A stretch of 64,000 nucleotides of DNA from Halocalculus aciditolerans. Lineage in GTDB: Archaea > Halobacteriota > Halobacteria > Halobacteriales > Halobacteriaceae. The notes under the pieces are model-generated. The model was not told the DNA's origin, searched no databases, and saw nothing but the letters and a program-made list of their open reading frames with translations. Made by a program: the position numbers and the translations under genes. Below, piece by piece: positions 4,950 through 11,500 of this stretch (positions within the stretch are counted from its first letter, which is position 1; the number at the start of each line of letters is the position of its first letter). The stretch is taken from NCBI RefSeq assembly GCF_014647475.1, contig NZ_BMPG01000003.1, positions 372,001-436,000 on the forward strand, read 5' to 3'.

Positions 4950-5690
4950 TCAGGCCCGGGCTTTACCGTCCTGAGACGCTGAGAGCGTGGTCGTATTCTG
5001 TTCGCCTCCGGAATCGGCACCGGGCGAGTCTGTCCGGATCGCTTCCCAGTCCGTAATCGCCGACACCGTACCGTTCGCCAGGTCAACCCGCACGGAGTAT
5101 TTGAGTTCGTGTCGCTGTGGTTCGCTGGGCTGTCGAATCTGGACAACTGCCCGGTCCGCGACATACGTCGGCTCACGGCGGGCGACAACTGCGCCATCCT
5201 CGTTGTCACCGGTAGCGTTCGAGATCGTGAACGTCTCGCCGGTATCCACGGACCCGTCGGTAGTCGCGTTATACCTGCCCGTCGGCTCTGCTGAGACAGT
5301 GATCTCGCGAATCGGGTCCACGGTAACGGTATAGTTCTCCAGCGACGCGAGCGCTGTCTGCACGGTCTGATTGTGTCGCGCAATCTGTCGCGCTCGCTGC
5401 CGTTCAGTCGCCGTTAGTGGTCGCTCTGCTTCGGTCTGCACCCTGAACTGGGCGGAGCCGACTTTCTCGATCTGAATCATCCGTACGTTCGACATGTTCT
5501 CGACGAGCGTGACGTTGTGACCAGCGTTCGACCAGGTGACGCTCTCGTCGGAGATCACGAACTGCGGACGTTCGCCGGGACTCGTCAGGGGAGTCGTCAT
5601 CCCGAGCCCAGTCCCCACGCCGGCCAGCGTCACTCCGAGCACGGCCAGGCCGGCGACGAGGAGTACCCGAGCACGAATCTCTGAGTCCAT
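4950..5690 (-). CDS. exported or membrane-anchored protein, regulator-associated
   Basis: The protein has 246 residues. Residues 8-30 form one hydrophobic segment (LLVAGLAVLGVTLAGVGTGL), so the remainder is probably outside the cell, anchored by its N-terminus. The external part is rich in Thr/Asn and beta-strand patterns, with helix-rich TATERQRARQIARHNQT in the middle. I do not recognise a family. It is transcribed divergently from the membrane-tethered HTH regulator, and the shared 135-base gap holds a phased GAAAC/GTTTC array, so it is likely a target of that regulator. Confidence 0.65.
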   Translation of the reverse strand: MDSEIRARVLLVAGLAVLGVTLAGVGTGLGMTTPLTSPGERPQFVISDESVTWSNAGHNVTLVENMSNVRMIQIEKVGSAQFRVQTEAERPLTATERQRARQIARHNQTVQTALASLENYTVTVDPIREITVSAEPTGRYNATTDGSVDTGETFTISNATGDNEDGAVVARREPTYVADRAVVQIRQPSEPQRHELKYSVRVDLANGTVSAITDWEAIRTDSPGADSGGEQNTTTLSASQDGKARA

Positions 5691-5730
5691 TAGTCGGATG
5701 TTGGCTGAAAGCCCTCATCAAGCCCGGGGT

Positions 5731-5776
5731 GAAACGCGTTTGGAAGCAGTTGGAAACGCGTTTCACGGGCGTTTCA
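5731..5776. promoter_or_regulatory. phased array of GAAAC/GTTTC half-sites (operator)
   Basis: GAAAC half-sites lie at 5731 and 5753 (22 bp apart), with a degenerate GGAAG at 5742 between them. GTTTG/GTTTC half-sites lie at 5738, 5760 and 5771. GAAACGCGTTTC at 5753-5764 is a perfect palindrome. Spacing is in steps of 11 bp, placing the sites on one DNA face. The array sits between the divergent starts at 5690 and 5826, so it probably controls both genes. Confidence 0.65.
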
Positions 5777-5825
5777 GGGCGTGAGAACGATAACTATTAA
5801 ACCGTCGTTCGGGGTATCAGCCGGT

Positions 5826-6404
5826 ATGGACAGCCCCGCCCTCCGGAACGTGCATCTCCTCGCGGCGGTGGTCTTCGTCGCGTCCGTCCTCGTTCTCGCC
5901 GTCCAGTTGATTACGCCATTACCAATCGTGGTGTCACTCGGCGAAAGCGGGACGCAGACGGCCCGCGTCGGCCAGTATTTCGCGTATGATGACGTCGCGG
6001 TCGTCGTCGTTGCGTCGGTCCTCAGCGGGGCGAGCGCGACGTATCTCGTCCTCCACGACCGGGCACACCGCTTGGTAGACCAACTCGGGAACGCAGACCC
6101 CGAGTCACACCCGCGACCGGAACCGAACGGCGGCACCGAGACCGGCGATGGCGGTGAGCGCGACGGCGAGGACGGGAGCTCACGACGCGAGCAGTGGGAG
6201 AAGACGGCCGAGTCCCTGAAGAACAACGAAGCGACCGTCTACACGCTACTCATCGAGGCGGGTGGTGAACGCCCGCAGCGCGAACTCGTCGAAGAGACCG
6301 ACCTCTCGAAGGCGACGGTCAGTCGAACACTGGATAAGCTCGAGAACAGGGGGCTCGTCGAGCGAAAGCGGAGCGGCATGGGGAACACGATACGCCTCCA
6401 GTAG
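5826..6404 (+). CDS. membrane-anchored winged-HTH transcriptional regulator
   Basis: The protein has 192 residues. The ATG at 5826 is preferred because an upstream ATG at 5781 would overlap the operator array. Two membrane segments lie at about residues 7-30 and 54-76, with a short external loop carrying the phrase ESGTQTARVGQYFAYDD between them. An acidic linker follows. The C-terminal 65 residues are a winged helix of MarR/IclR-like type (QRELVEETDLSKATVSRTLDKLENRGLVERKRSGMGN) in the cytoplasm. The regulator is flanked by two exported-protein genes, and phased operator arrays lie on both sides of its gene. The picture is a membrane-tethered regulator that may sense the envelope; this is inference. 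Confidence 0.8.
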   Translation: MDSPALRNVHLLAAVVFVASVLVLAVQLITPLPIVVSLGESGTQTARVGQYFAYDDVAVVVVASVLSGASATYLVLHDRAHRLVDQLGNADPESHPRPEPNGGTETGDGGERDGEDGSSRREQWEKTAESLKNNEATVYTLLIEAGGERPQRELVEETDLSKATVSRTLDKLENRGLVERKRSGMGNTIRLQ

Positions 6405-6415
6405 CGAGAGCAGCT

Positions 6416-6460
6416 GAAACGCGCCTCAAACGCGTTTCCAACCGTTTTCAGGCGTGTTTC
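6416..6460. promoter_or_regulatory. second phased array of GAAAC/GTTTC half-sites
   Basis: GAAAC lies at 6416 and CAAAC at 6427. GTTTC-type half-sites lie at 6434, about 6445 (TTTTC) and 6456. All steps are 11 bp, and AAACGCGTTT at 6428-6437 forms the palindromic core. The array starts 12 bases after the stop of the regulator gene and is upstream of the exported-protein gene at 6592. Confidence 0.65.
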
Positions 6461-6591
6461 CAATCAAGCCCTAAGAGGTCTTTCAGCCAATGGAGAACTG
6501 CGGCGAACCGGGACGCCCCGGCCCAGGTCCCGCTGACTGCTTCGCAGGTACGGCCCTCCGGTCCCGGTCCGCCGCTCCAAGCAACCGAACC

Positions 6592-7212
6592 ATGCAACGC
6601 AAAGCACTCACGCTCGCGGTCGTCACGCTGCTCGCCTTCGGAGCGAGCGGTGCCGTCGCGGCGTCAATCGGCCCGAGCCCGTCGGCGGCTACCGCACAGT
6701 CGCCGGCAGCCGACGCATCGCCCGCCAACTACACAGTCGAAGTCACCGACCCCTACGACCGGCTGAGCGCTGGAGAAGTAGAGACGGCGTGGCAGGTCGC
6801 GTGGAAGAACGACACCGTCAGAAACCACTTCGAGGACGATTCCCCCGTTCACTTCGAAGTGTGGGCACCACAGCCCGATGAGAACCGGGTCGTGGTGTCG
6901 GTCGAGCTAGCTGACGAACCCGACAGCGCACGCGTCCTGGCGACCGTGCACCTCGACAATCCCGCCGGTGAGCGGGTGAGCGACGTCAAGGAACCGACCC
7001 CGGTCACCAGCAACGGGACGTTCTCGGTCGAATCCGGCGAGTACCACTCAGTCGATACTGGCGAACCGACCGAGTTCGAAACGGGCGGGTCGATCACCAT
7101 CGCGGTCAGCAGCGGAAACGTAGACCCCGAGGGCATCTCCGTCCGTCTCGCCTCGGATAATCAGACCGCAGTCACCGAAGAAGGGAACACGACCCAGGTA
7201 CCTGCCGAGTGA
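6592..7212 (+). CDS. secreted protein, probable target of the adjacent regulator
   Basis: The protein has 206 residues from MQRKALTLAVVTLLAFGASG; the ATG at 6490 would only add a Gly/Pro-rich leader running into the promoter. A Sec-type signal peptide covers residues 1-24, with a likely cleavage after AVAA. The mature part has the phrase DRLSAGEVETAWQVAWKND and beta-rich segments with N-x-T sites. No known family is recognised. A phased GAAAC/GTTTC array lies 130 bases upstream, matching the array in front of the divergent gene pair, so these three genes probably form one small regulon. Confidence 0.7.
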   Translation: MQRKALTLAVVTLLAFGASGAVAASIGPSPSAATAQSPAADASPANYTVEVTDPYDRLSAGEVETAWQVAWKNDTVRNHFEDDSPVHFEVWAPQPDENRVVVSVELADEPDSARVLATVHLDNPAGERVSDVKEPTPVTSNGTFSVESGEYHSVDTGEPTEFETGGSITIAVSSGNVDPEGISVRLASDNQTAVTEEGNTTQVPAE

Positions 7213-7710: not shown

Positions 7711-8208
7711 TTACGCACGTAAGGCGATGAGTAACGCGAACACGCCGACGAGGAGCGCCGCGAGCGCCCACACGGACCCCTGACCGAGCGTGCTCACGAA
7801 CACGGCGTAGCCGATACCTGATCCGGCGGCGAAGACGACGATACTACTGATCGCGTGAACGAGTTCGATCCGAGTCGTAGCGGGAGAGTCGCCGACCTCA
7901 GCGGCGATCCCCAGTGCGTTCCGTCCGACGTCCCACGCGACCATCGTGAGAACCGCCGCAGTCAGTACGAGGCTCGGAGCCACTCCCGCGAGACTCGCAA
8001 ACACGAGTCCGCCGACGAACACCACCCCGCCGCTATCGACGAGCAAGCGCGACTGCCGAGAGAGGCCGGCCGCGAGGAGACAGACGCCGAGGACGCCGCC
8101 GACGAGCGTTGGAAGCGAGACCGCGATCACGAGGGGTACGACGATCGCGGCGGCCAGTGAGATCCCAGCGCTCACCCGTGGTACTCGCGTCCGTCGACGT
8201 CGCATCAC
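7711..8208 (-). CDS. DUF7519-type membrane protein
   Basis: The 165-residue protein has five or six hydrophobic segments spread along its whole length. It is the last gene of an operon: its ATG overlaps the stop of the DUF58 gene (8205-8208, ATGA-type coupling). In other haloarchaea a small polytopic protein in this place of the DUF4129/DUF58 cluster is annotated DUF7519; the assignment here rests on position, size and topology. The function is unknown, presumably in the membrane complex formed with the DUF58 protein. Confidence 0.65.
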   Translation of the reverse strand: MMRRRRTRVPRVSAGISLAAAIVVPLVIAVSLPTLVGGVLGVCLLAAGLSRQSRLLVDSGGVVFVGGLVFASLAGVAPSLVLTAAVLTMVAWDVGRNALGIAAEVGDSPATTRIELVHAISSIVVFAAGSGIGYAVFVSTLGQGSVWALAALLVGVFALLIALRA

Positions 8209-10172
8209 GATGTTTCCTCCGCACCCGCTGGTTCGAGTGTGCCTTCCGTCTGGACGTGAATCCCGGCGTTCCGGAGGGAGTTGATGCGGAACCGCCGCAT
8301 CAACACCGCGTAGCCCTCTCCGGCCGAGAGCGACACTCCCTCCTCAGTCGGGAAGGGCGAGCGCACGGAGACGGTGTAGCCGTGCGCGTCGAGTAACCGA
8401 ATGAACTGGACGATTTCCTCGTCAATCAGCGGGGAGACGACCACGACCTGCGTCGCGGTCTGTGTCTGCCGTGTAAGCGTCCCCAGCGCGCGCTCGACGT
8501 CGAAGTCGGCCGCGGGCGGCGTCCAGCTGAAGGCGTCGTTCTCCGTGAGTTGCGTCTGGATCCGGTCGCGGTGCGTCGCCCCTGCGTGCGGCGCGAGCCA
8601 GCAGGACCGCGGGGACACCGCTAGCAATCCGACAGGAATCTGGTCGTCGAGGCACGCCATCGCGATGTCGCGTGCTGCTGCGATACTCGCGCGAACGAGG
8701 GGCGTGTCCGCGTCGCGTCCGACGGTCTGATACGTCTCGCGGCGCGCATCGACGGCGACGACCACGCGCGTGAGTCGTGACTCGTCGAAGTCAATCGTGG
8801 TGAACTCGCCCGTTTTCGCTCGCTGCTTCCAGTTCACGCGCGAGAGCGGGTCGCCCGGTCGGTACTCGCGGACGGAGTGGAATTCGACGCCCGCACCCGC
8901 GGTGTTCGAGCGCGACACCCCCGGGAAGCGTGTCGTGCGGCGGCGATGCGCTTCGGTCGCGGCGGGCCGACGGGGGTGCTGGCAGGTGAGTGTCGTCGGG
9001 GCGGGTTCGGCGAGGGCCTCGCGGCGCTGGAGTCCGGTGACGTCGCGCGTGATGACGAGCATCGGCTCGAACGCGTGGCGGCCGGGCGCGGCCTCGACGC
9101 AGTAGGTGAAGGAGGCTCGCTTTCCGGGCCGTAAGGCGGTCGTGAATCGCGGCGAACCCTCGGTGACGCGAAGCCCGGGCGGGACGCCGTCGATGACGCG
9201 TAAATCCGCGAGCGTCTCCGAGCCCGTGTTCTCGATGCTGACCGTGACCGTCACCTCCGTGCCGGGCGCGGGTGCCTCGACGTCGAGGACGCGGGAGACG
9301 CTGACTGAGTCCGTCGGTGGGGTGGCGACGCGGGCGTAGCCGGCGACGACCACGCCGAAGAGCGTGAGCAAGAGCAGCGAGGGCGTCAGCGTGAGGATGC
9401 CGAGGCCGCCGAGCGCCAGCGCGGCGACGACGACCCCATCGGCTCGACTCGACCGGCGCTCTCGCGCCGTCTCCGCACCCGGTCCCCAGTACGCTCGCAC
9501 CGAAGCGGGTGGTGACGGCGACTGACCGGCGGTCGTTTCTTCACGGAGATCGGGGGTGACGGGTGTGTCCGTGGCGCGGTTTGCGAGGGCGGCGATAGCG
9601 TGCCGCGCCCGACGGGCGAACACCGGCTCCGGCGACCACACGGAGCGAAGCCGCTGTCGGACGGAGAGCTCCGGGACGACGTCGTCGGTGAAGAAGGCCG
9701 CTGCATCCAGATCTGGTGTCCAGGAGCCCGTATCGAGGCGGGATTCGACCTCACTGCGTGACCACTGGTCGCTGTCGGCGAGCACCCGTCTCGCCATCGC
9801 TCGCAGATCGTCACGAAGGCTGCGTCGGGCCGCGGGCGTGGTTTCGCGGCGGTCCGTCCAGGAGACCTCGTCGAGGCGGCGGGCGAACGACTCGCCGAGA
9901 GACGCGTAGCGGGGGCGGCGTTCGGGCGTCGGCGTCTCCGGGGACTGCCCCTCCGTGTCGCCCCCCTCGTCGGGGGCCGATGAGAGAACGCCCGTGAGGA
10001 CGTAGATGCCGGCGAGGAGGAGGACGCCGACACCGCCGAGTGCGAACGGTGCGGCGCGGCCGACTCCGGCCGGAACGAACCCGCTACCGAGCGACGGCGC
10101 GGCGAGGAGGAACACGCCCAGAAGGCTCGTGACGAGACCAACGATGAGGAGTGAACGGCGTGGTCGTGTCAT
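8205..10172 (-). CDS. DUF7269-DUF58 fusion membrane protein
   Basis: The protein has 655 residues. Residues 1-60 contain two membrane segments. Residues about 90-205 match the haloarchaeal DUF7269 helical domain (the LDTGSWTPDLDAAAFF phrase). A second hydrophobic pair lies near 240-275, then a CARDB-like beta domain (VTVTVSIENTGSETL). A DUF58 domain follows, with the signature HSVREYRPGDPLSRVNWKQR and a VWA-like core (TRVVVAVDARRET). DUF58 proteins are partners of MoxR AAA ATPases. In the haloarchaea I recall, DUF7269 and DUF58 are separate genes, so the fusion is notable. The gene overlaps both neighbours by 4 bases. Confidence 0.8.
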   Translation of the reverse strand: MTRPRRSLLIVGLVTSLLGVFLLAAPSLGSGFVPAGVGRAAPFALGGVGVLLLAGIYVLTGVLSSAPDEGGDTEGQSPETPTPERRPRYASLGESFARRLDEVSWTDRRETTPAARRSLRDDLRAMARRVLADSDQWSRSEVESRLDTGSWTPDLDAAAFFTDDVVPELSVRQRLRSVWSPEPVFARRARHAIAALANRATDTPVTPDLREETTAGQSPSPPASVRAYWGPGAETARERRSSRADGVVVAALALGGLGILTLTPSLLLLTLFGVVVAGYARVATPPTDSVSVSRVLDVEAPAPGTEVTVTVSIENTGSETLADLRVIDGVPPGLRVTEGSPRFTTALRPGKRASFTYCVEAAPGRHAFEPMLVITRDVTGLQRREALAEPAPTTLTCQHPRRPAATEAHRRRTTRFPGVSRSNTAGAGVEFHSVREYRPGDPLSRVNWKQRAKTGEFTTIDFDESRLTRVVVAVDARRETYQTVGRDADTPLVRASIAAARDIAMACLDDQIPVGLLAVSPRSCWLAPHAGATHRDRIQTQLTENDAFSWTPPAADFDVERALGTLTRQTQTATQVVVVSPLIDEEIVQFIRLLDAHGYTVSVRSPFPTEEGVSLSAGEGYAVLMRRFRINSLRNAGIHVQTEGTLEPAGAEETS

Positions 10173-10885
10173 TCGCTCGCGGGTTCGGATTCGTCGTCAG
10201 TCTCACCCTCGCCGTCGGCGCGTTGTATCGTGTGGAGGGCGTGCTGGGCGTCGCGTTCTCGGTCCGGCGTCGGCGGTGCGTCGCCGTAGCGGACGGTTCG
10301 GAAGAGGCGCGTGACGGTTCGGACGGCGGACTCGGGGAGGCCAGCGTCGACGGCAGCGTGTGCGAGCTCGCTCGGCGTCTTGTGGCGGTGGTCGTCCGGA
10401 TGGGCGATCGCGAGCATCGCCTGCCACGCTCGATAGACGTCATTGTCTGCGGGGGCGTGCGCCGCGTCCGGTGGCCGGGATCTAGTTATTTCGCTGACAG
10501 AATGGTCGGTGGGTGTCGTCGTCGGTTCGACGGCGGCGGCTCCATCGTCACCGGTGAGCCACCAGAGGCTGAGGCCCCCACTGACGAGGAGGAGGAGCAC
10601 GGCGATCGCGAGGCGGACGAGCCCACTCGTCGCGTGGGTTAAACCGGTCGTGGCCTCGGACGAGAAGTTGAGTTGCGGAAGGAAGTAGTGGCTGGATGAC
10701 TGGCCGCCTGACGGGTTCGCAGGGTTCGGGGACGCGCCCGCTGGACCACCCGTCCCGGGCGACCCCGGAGTGCCCGGGGAATGGGAGCGGGTGGGGTGTG
10801 CGGAGTGCAGTGTCCCAGCTGCGGCTCCGAGGACGGCGAGCGCGAACACGGTGATGAGGAGGGCTGCGAGATGAGAGCGGTTCAT
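10169..10885 (-). CDS. DUF4129 domain membrane protein
   Basis: The protein has 238 residues. It has an N-terminal signal/TM segment (residues 5-26), a long Ser/Gly/Pro-rich external stretch, a second TM (about 88-110), and a cytoplasmic C-terminal DUF4129 domain (YRAWQAMLAIAHPDDHRHKT, PSELAHAAVDAGLPE). DUF4129 resembles the C-terminal part of transglutaminase-like proteins and accompanies MoxR/DUF58 genes. It is the first gene of the operon visible here; its stop overlaps the ATG of the DUF58 gene (10169-10172). The MoxR ATPase that normally belongs to the set is absent from the window, and the upstream DNA is a decayed insertion sequence. Confidence 0.75.
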   Translation of the reverse strand: MNRSHLAALLITVFALAVLGAAAGTLHSAHPTRSHSPGTPGSPGTGGPAGASPNPANPSGGQSSSHYFLPQLNFSSEATTGLTHATSGLVRLAIAVLLLLVSGGLSLWWLTGDDGAAAVEPTTTPTDHSVSEITRSRPPDAAHAPADNDVYRAWQAMLAIAHPDDHRHKTPSELAHAAVDAGLPESAVRTVTRLFRTVRYGDAPPTPDRERDAQHALHTIQRADGEGETDDESEPASE

Positions 10886-10909: not shown

Positions 10910-11500
10910 TTAGCGGCGTGACGTGATAAGAATTATACTGTTCGCGAGCGGCCCGGGTGGGGACGTCGACGTGTCGCTCGGAGCCCGGAGTTTCGAGGGA
11001 GTGAACCGCTTTCCGGTGAGGTTTCGCTCGGTGTAGTCGACCCGACCGCTCGATCCCAATCGAGCGAGCGAAGTCGGATATTCGAATGGGTCCGCGAGAG
11101 GCACAGTGTCTGAGGGGGCGTATTTCTCGCTGAGCCGGCGCAAAAACGCAGCCGCCGAGCGGTGCCGTGCCGTCCAAACAACGTGACGCCGAGAATGAAC
11201 CTCCTCTCGGTGTCTCTGGCAGCGTACAGCCGAGACCACTCGCCGTTGATCTTGACAGCAGTCTCGTCGACTGCGACCCGCTTCGGCCGCGCTTCAGCCG
11301 GGTCGCATCCGCTGTCAGCGAGCCGATGCACCCACTTTCAAACCGCCGCGTGCGAGCGTTCAACGCCTACTTCCGCTAAGATCGTTGGTGTCTCGCGGAG
11401 CGAACGACCGGTTTCATGGAGGCGGACGGCGACCGCCCGAGTGGGCGTCGCCGTCCGCTCGTTCTCCCGAGTGTCTTCTAAATCCGCGTCATAGCACTCG
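10910..11500 (-). pseudogene. decayed IS6-family transposase
   Basis: Fragments in all three minus-strand frames line up with a haloarchaeal IS6-type transposase. In order they are SLRETPTILAEVGVERSHAAV (N-terminal HTH), KRVAVDETAVKINGEWSRLY (first catalytic Asp), ILGVTLFGRHGTA, then after a frameshift AAAFLRRLSEKYAPSDTVPL, SGRVDYTERNL (around the glutamate region) and a last fragment AREQYNSYHV near 10920. At least two frameshifts and several substitutions are present, so it is inactive. No terminal inverted repeats could be identified by eye. It lies where a MoxR gene might be expected. Confidence 0.75.

Follow-up and report, generated by a model that had tools for sequence, protein, structure and literature searches.

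Helically phased GAAAC/GTTTC arrays around a membrane-anchored winged-helix regulator: a probable local one-component circuit in haloarchaea

The window analysed here is a stretch of 64,000 nucleotides of Halocalculus aciditolerans (assembly GCF_014647475.1, contig NZ_BMPG01000003.1, positions 372,001 to 436,000 of the forward strand). It contains a three-gene locus in which the gene of a predicted membrane regulator is flanked on one side by a divergent gene coding for an exported or N-anchored protein (g1) and on the other by a downstream gene coding for a secreted protein (g2), with an array of short repeated half-sites in each of the two intergenic regions (Table 1). Downstream of g2, on the reverse strand, lies a DUF7519 / DUF7269-DUF58 / DUF4129 gene cluster (7711-10885), of a type commonly accompanied by MoxR ATPases. 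Further on (10910-11363, also on the reverse strand), overlapping frames resemble, as judged by eye only, fragments of a broken IS-type transposase ('...RVAVDETAVKINGEWSRLYAARD...').

Table 1. Features of the three-gene locus, in window coordinates.
Feature	Position	Strand	Description
g1	4950..5690	-	Exported/N-anchored protein, 246 aa; hydrophobic N-terminus; no Pfam family
g1 core promoter	5706..5721	-	TTGATG (weak TATA-like, 5716-5721), CTTTCA (5706-5711); ATG at ~ +22 from CTTTCA
Putative operator array 1	5730..5776	.	GAAAC at 5731, 5753; GTTTC at 5760, 5771; weaker copies at 5742, 5749, 5764; 11-bp period
TATA-like element of the regulator's own promoter	5794..5801	+	CTATTAAA; conserved; orthologue consensus about CATTAAA
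Regulator	5826..6404	+	192 aa; predicted TM1 11-29, outer loop ~31-55, TM2 57-75, linker 77-122, winged helix 123-192
Regulator outer loop	5916..5990	+	PLPIVVSLGESGTQTARVGQYFAYD; conservation close to that of the winged helix
Regulator winged helix-turn-helix	6192..6401	+	Pfam DUF7343, MarR_2; recognition segment EETDLSKATVSRTLD nearly invariant in the alignment
Putative operator array 2	6415..6461	.	GAAAC at 6416; GTTTC at 6434, 6456; weaker copies between; 11-bp period
g2 core promoter	6460..6485	+	CCAATCAA 6460-6467, CTAAGA 6471-6476, CTTTCA 6480-6485; conserved in 36 aligned promoters
g2 mRNA 5' leader hairpin	6498..6577	+	Predicted fold, -43.3 kcal/mol
g2	6592..7212	+	Secreted protein with signal peptide, 206 aa; no Pfam family

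In all likelihood the regulator begins with the ATG at 5826, a conserved start at which the alignments set in and which is preceded by a likewise conserved TATA-like element; an alternative start at GTG 5781 was rejected on these grounds. The protein matches Pfam DUF7343 (5e-15, 55.6 bits against a curated cut-off of 27.6) and MarR_2 (3.6e-11, 43.5 bits against a cut-off of 27), and also TrmB. Two hydrophobic segments are found in 75 of 80 homologues. The outer loop, with a mean length of 27 residues, carries a net negative charge and the N-terminal tail a net positive one; immediately behind TM2 the charge is slightly negative, and the positive-inside rule therefore holds at the N-terminus only. 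Mean pairwise identity is 0.59 in the outer loop, 0.13 in the linker and 0.64 in the winged helix, values that would fit a loop serving as sensor or interaction surface, a linker acting as a free tether and a winged helix that binds DNA. Conserved residues of the loop are P31, P33, G42, G49 and F52 (numbering of the window's regulator). Members of the MarR family proper are soluble ~140-aa dimers, with dimerisation helices on both sides of the wHTH. The winged helix of the regulator is of the MarR type, but this architecture is not seen: the TM pair and the unconserved linker precede the wHTH and the protein ends with the wing. The nearest solved winged helix by sequence belongs to an Lrs14-like regulator (PDB 6cmv, E 5.4e-5), the likeness being confined to the wHTH; the chain of 6cmv, 139 aa long, lacks the TM pair and the loop.

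A hydrophobic N-terminal segment is present in every orthologue examined of both exported partners (g1 46/46, g2 29/29), and no functional family was found for either in Pfam or NCBIfam. Comparison of the g1 and g2 profiles gave a probability of 96% (E 1e-9) over an alignment that includes the signal region; the two proteins probably share a domain, the homology of g1 to g2 lying in its C-terminal part. AlphaFold2 models built from shallow alignments reached pLDDT values of 55.5 (g1) and 58.4 (g2), with only residues ~45-135 of g2 being reliable. A Foldseek search with the g2 model against the PDB returned no significant match; the hit to the ToxR periplasmic domain (6utc, probability 0.63, E 0.35) has no evidential value. 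A PepSY-like fold, prompted by the pattern of a helix followed by strands, was considered for g1 and g2 and dropped, as no search supported it. In the 42 aligned g1 promoters, columns -9..-6 (T/A/T) and CTTTCA are nearly invariant. The g1 mRNA is probably leaderless, as 25-30 bp separate the TATA-like element TTGATG from the start codon. At three other loci (L037, L039 and L099) the g2-side promoter has a CAACGGGTG motif instead of CCAATCAA, and the two core types seem to be clade-linked.

Written in steps of 11 bp, array 1 reads gaaacgcgttt, ggaagcagttg, gaaacgcgttt, cacgggcgttt, c (5731-5775), and array 2 reads gaaacgcgcct, caaacgcgttt, ccaaccgtttt, caggcgtgttt, cc (6416-6461). All the GAAAC-to-GTTTC offsets in both arrays are 7, 18, 29 or 40 (that is, 7+11n). 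The two intergenic regions hold 7 exact half-sites against 1.3 expected; over the whole window GAAAC is not enriched (107 found, 106 expected). A preliminary description had placed GAAAC/GTTTC half-sites in 11-bp steps in two arrays, one between the divergent exported-protein gene and the regulator and the other between the regulator and the second exported-protein gene, and had given the regulator two TM helices and a cytoplasmic winged helix; the 7 exact sites lie at those places, and the predicted topology and the Pfam matches agree with that domain assignment. Once array 1 is reverse-complemented, both arrays align without gaps into a common downstream element, CTTTCA..CAA. About 10 bp separate the end of the array from a weak TATA-like element downstream of it, which is TTGATG for g1 and of the CTATGA type for g2. 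The array stands at a fixed distance from both this element and CTTTCA..CAA and does not occupy the BRE/TATA position. Array 1 lies next to the regulator's own promoter as well.

Of the 392 genomes of the order, 76, belonging to 29 of 95 genera, have homologues of the regulator (E<=1e-20). Their distribution is patchy, since only one other genome with a regulator match was found among the 26 sampled from the window's own family. Named records with homologues include Halostella, Haloferax mucosum, Natrinema, Natronomonas, Salinarchaeum, Halorientalis and Halorussus, and copies are borne on plasmids of two laboratory organisms, Haloferax mediterranei ATCC 33500 (pHME505, E6P09_RS15890 / RS15895 / RS15900) and Haloarcula hispanica ATCC 33960, where the annotation of the records examined reads only 'MarR family transcriptional regulator' and 'hypothetical protein'. 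No relative was found in viral contigs. Searches of the open-access literature yielded no paper describing the three-gene locus or the regulator family, and none was found on DUF7343, DUF7344 or DUF7345. Among 80 loci examined, 46 have a divergent g1 followed by the regulator and usually by g2 downstream (type I, the layout of the window), with a recognisable g2 in 29 of the 46. In ~25 other loci (type II) a divergent exported gene and the array are followed by g1 and the regulator in the same direction. The type II array lies between the divergent exported gene and the g1-regulator operon, and therefore follows the target promoters through the change in gene order.

Upstream of the regulator, the 46 type I regions contain 176 half-sites where shuffled sequences have 33.9 (and never more than 49). 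Pairs on the same strand with a spacing of 11, 22 or 33 bp number 78, compared with 0.2 after shuffling (maximum 2). Counted independently of any alignment, 127 of the 150 GAAAC-to-GTTTC offsets in type I equal 7 modulo 11, as do 109 of 169 in the 25 type II regions. The arrays before g2 are weaker and looser: their 83 half-sites and 10 phased pairs compare with 28.6 and 0.2, respectively, in the shuffles. The three-gene order for which the preliminary description had proposed a search in related genomes was found in type I loci of many genera, and neither of the outcomes that it had named as contrary to its reading (half-sites unconserved in orthologous promoters, or a phasing other than 11 bp) occurred.

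The g2 mRNA has a predicted leader of ~80-95 nt, which begins with a long, conserved predicted hairpin. The folding z-scores of 28 g2 leaders have a median of -3.3, with 21 of them below -2. In the seven alignable leaders, 8 of 25 pairs changed on both sides compared with 3.6 after shuffling (1/500 as high), and sliding the partner strand destroys the pairing. Type II leaders mostly have long stems too, with weak scores (z -0.6 to -2.2). A search of window positions 5600-6800 against Rfam gave no match up to E=1, so that the leader corresponds to no known Rfam leader or riboswitch. The hairpin sequence is clade-specific and a covariance model built from the g2 leaders matches the close clade alone; the hairpin is therefore a shared feature and not yet a definable RNA family.

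We consider it likely that the locus is a local and dedicated haloarchaeal one-component membrane circuit, in which the regulator would act on its two exported partners, more probably as an activator. The regulator would be anchored by its two membrane helices with both the N- and C-termini in the cytoplasm, the short conserved outer loop would read the state of the envelope, and the winged helix, carried by a flexible linker, would bind the roughly four overlapping 11-bp GAAACGCGTTTC modules that make up an array. As the weak core promoter of each exported partner has an array immediately upstream (in type I an array also lies by the promoter of the regulator), binding would switch g1 and g2 together. 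It would more likely recruit TFB/TBP than block, activation being favoured because the array adjoins the BRE/TATA position without covering it. The proteins g1 and g2 are probably effectors, and possibly ligands of the loop, because they are homologous, exported and almost never found without the regulator.

The main rival to activation is the same circuit with the regulator as repressor and autorepressor, its arrays being filled at rest and released by an envelope signal. MarR-type repressors are often encoded divergently from their target, with the operator in between, and the position of array 1 next to the regulator's promoter would suit autorepression. However, the arrays lie upstream of BRE/TATA and the start site and not over them, and their fixed distance to the weak TATA-like elements (TTGATG, CTATGA/CTAAGA) is that of an activator site, as in the proposal made for CsmR (PMC13286277); repression is regarded as rather unlikely.

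The tie between arrays and regulator was assessed with R1, a sequence-only model of the array plus core promoter trained on arrays adjoining regulators. Even at E<=10, its only sites in the host genome are array 1 (E 2.8e-20 over 5701-5776) and array 2 (E 1.4e-13 over 6415-6490), both sequences being in the training set. R1 matches occur in 68 of the 392 genomes, all among the 76 with the regulator (Fisher p about 1e-67, a co-occurrence that inheritance of the whole circuit could inflate relative to independent tests), and detection near regulators is partly built in through the training set. Absence elsewhere is not built in, and R1 found no match in the 316 genomes without the regulator; among the matches listed, all 148 lie within 2.4 kb of a regulator. 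Eight genomes with the regulator have no R1 match; some are cut by contig ends, and the filters were stricter. The exported partners follow the regulator closely, g1 being found in 69 of the 392 genomes (68 with the regulator) and g2 in 41 (40 with it). The two exceptions look like decayed loci: genome G005 holds a truncated g1 remnant, regulator and array being gone, and G353 has an orphan g2 near a contig end, without array or regulator. This pattern, with its decayed exceptions, indicates joint gain and loss of the regulator, the arrays and the targets. Occupation of the arrays by some other, unlinked DNA-binding protein, the regulator being merely a neighbour, appears improbable in view of the absence of arrays from regulator-less genomes, the short distance of every listed match and the place kept by the array through the change in gene order, even though winged-helix proteins are numerous in haloarchaea.

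The remnant in G005 (L141, G005:C6:308500-314500), a genome of the same family, is 68% identical to g1 and N-terminally truncated, and a gene for a MoxR-type ATPase lies nearby. Since the window locus in turn has a DUF58/DUF4129 cluster in its neighbourhood, the remnant appears to mark a natural deletion at the corresponding site. In G153 a second copy of g1 is found on another contig (L142, G153:C2:59500-64500), with no array or regulator nearby.

A gap-free alignment of the orthologous promoters on the common CTTTCA..CAA element showed information peaks at AA steps (-62, -51, -40 and -29) and at TT steps (-44/-43, -34/-33 and -23/-22) with low values between them; the phase is therefore conserved and the rest of the spacer has drifted. 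The units of the array have diverged in each clade, and the phase is kept across many genera. AA and TT steps repeating at helical phase would also be the mark of a nucleosome- or bend-type signal, produced by archaeal histones or intrinsic curvature, but the full pentamer and the CGCG centres are conserved beyond AA/TT alone, the array keeps a fixed position relative to the core promoter and the genome has the motif at this locus only; the histone-positioning and curvature readings were rejected on this conservation of pentamer, centre and promoter register, and are very improbable. Short tandem units can arise by slippage, yet chance or a functionless repeat expansion has a negligible probability, given that none of 5000 dinucleotide-preserving shuffles reached the half-site count or the 11/22-bp pairs of the window's intergenic regions and that the phase outlived the divergence of the units.

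The unit GAAAC-GC-GTTTC has the 5+2+5 layout that is typical of many MarR-type operators. A MarR-type dimer usually covers ~20 bp and dyads 11 bp apart face the same side of the DNA, so ordinary dimers cannot fill all the dyads on one face. The preliminary description had taken the locus for an envelope-sensing circuit in which several HTH dimers bind one DNA face from the membrane; occupation of the array would instead call for alternate sites 22 bp apart, opposite faces or an oligomer. It is also conceivable, although we hold this extension of the activator circuit to be doubtful, that the two-helix regulator oligomerises on the phased operator and thereby keeps this part of the chromosome at the membrane while the circuit is active. 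In this extension g1 and g2 would feed back on the outer loop and the g2 leader would add control at the RNA level.

Among transmembrane transcription regulators (TTRs), the bacterial ToxR and CadC have an N-terminal winged helix of the OmpR type, a single TM and a folded outer domain. In contrast, the regulator described here has a C-terminal winged helix of the MarR/DUF7343 type, two TMs and an outer loop of ~25 residues, and does not belong to the ToxR/CadC type. It does share with TTRs in general a DNA-binding domain and at least one TM region in the same polypeptide, as predicted here from its sequence (Demey et al. 2023, PMC10269533). Its kind is already known, the best archaeal examples being ArnR and ArnR1 (PMC6396743, PMC10269533). 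These membrane-bound one-component activators of Sulfolobus acidocaldarius, for which oligomers have been observed, regulate archaellum and pili, with two cis boxes in the target promoter, and likewise combine an HTH and two TM helices in one archaeal protein (PMC6396743). However, ArnR has an N-terminal HTH, a HAMP-like and a sensor domain and a C-terminal TM pair (PMC6396743), whereas in the regulator the order is reversed and no HAMP-like, sensor or other domain was found, which places it outside the ArnR family as defined there; the dense 11-bp arrays and the local targets are further differences.

Within the same genome, two DUF7345-DUF7343 membrane proteins (L002 and L003) resemble the regulator in having a C-terminal DUF7343 winged helix on a membrane anchor, the similarity being weak (E 4.6e-8 and 4.9e-4), but differ in their large DUF7345 outer domain, their length (435-478 aa as called) and the lack of a phased array. 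As a whole, the DUF7343 family seems to consist of membrane regulators of haloarchaea that have received no study. As for the operators, several copies of a short site upstream of a promoter are also found for EarA of Methanococcus maripaludis, a winged-helix activator that uses four copies of the 6-bp site TACATA at the archaellum operon and for which no membrane anchor is described in these two sources (PMC6396743, PMC13286277). CsmR of Haloferax volcanii, proposed to enhance TFB recruitment from a position upstream of BRE/TATA, has a single semi-palindromic site, TATCA(N4)TGATA, and a genome-wide regulon (PMC13286277), in contrast to the phased array seen here. Relative to known TTRs, the family is set apart by the N-terminal TM pair without a separate sensor domain, the dense phased putative operators and the apparently closed regulon of two targets.

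How membrane-bound regulators find and use their DNA has yet to be settled for bacteria and archaea alike, and studies of archaeal cases are very few. Roughly one in five of the sampled genomes of the order has a member of the regulator family, whose putative operator is defined to the base by comparison. In archaea the circuit would be well suited to clean tests of membrane tethering, of operator phasing and of the sensing of the envelope.
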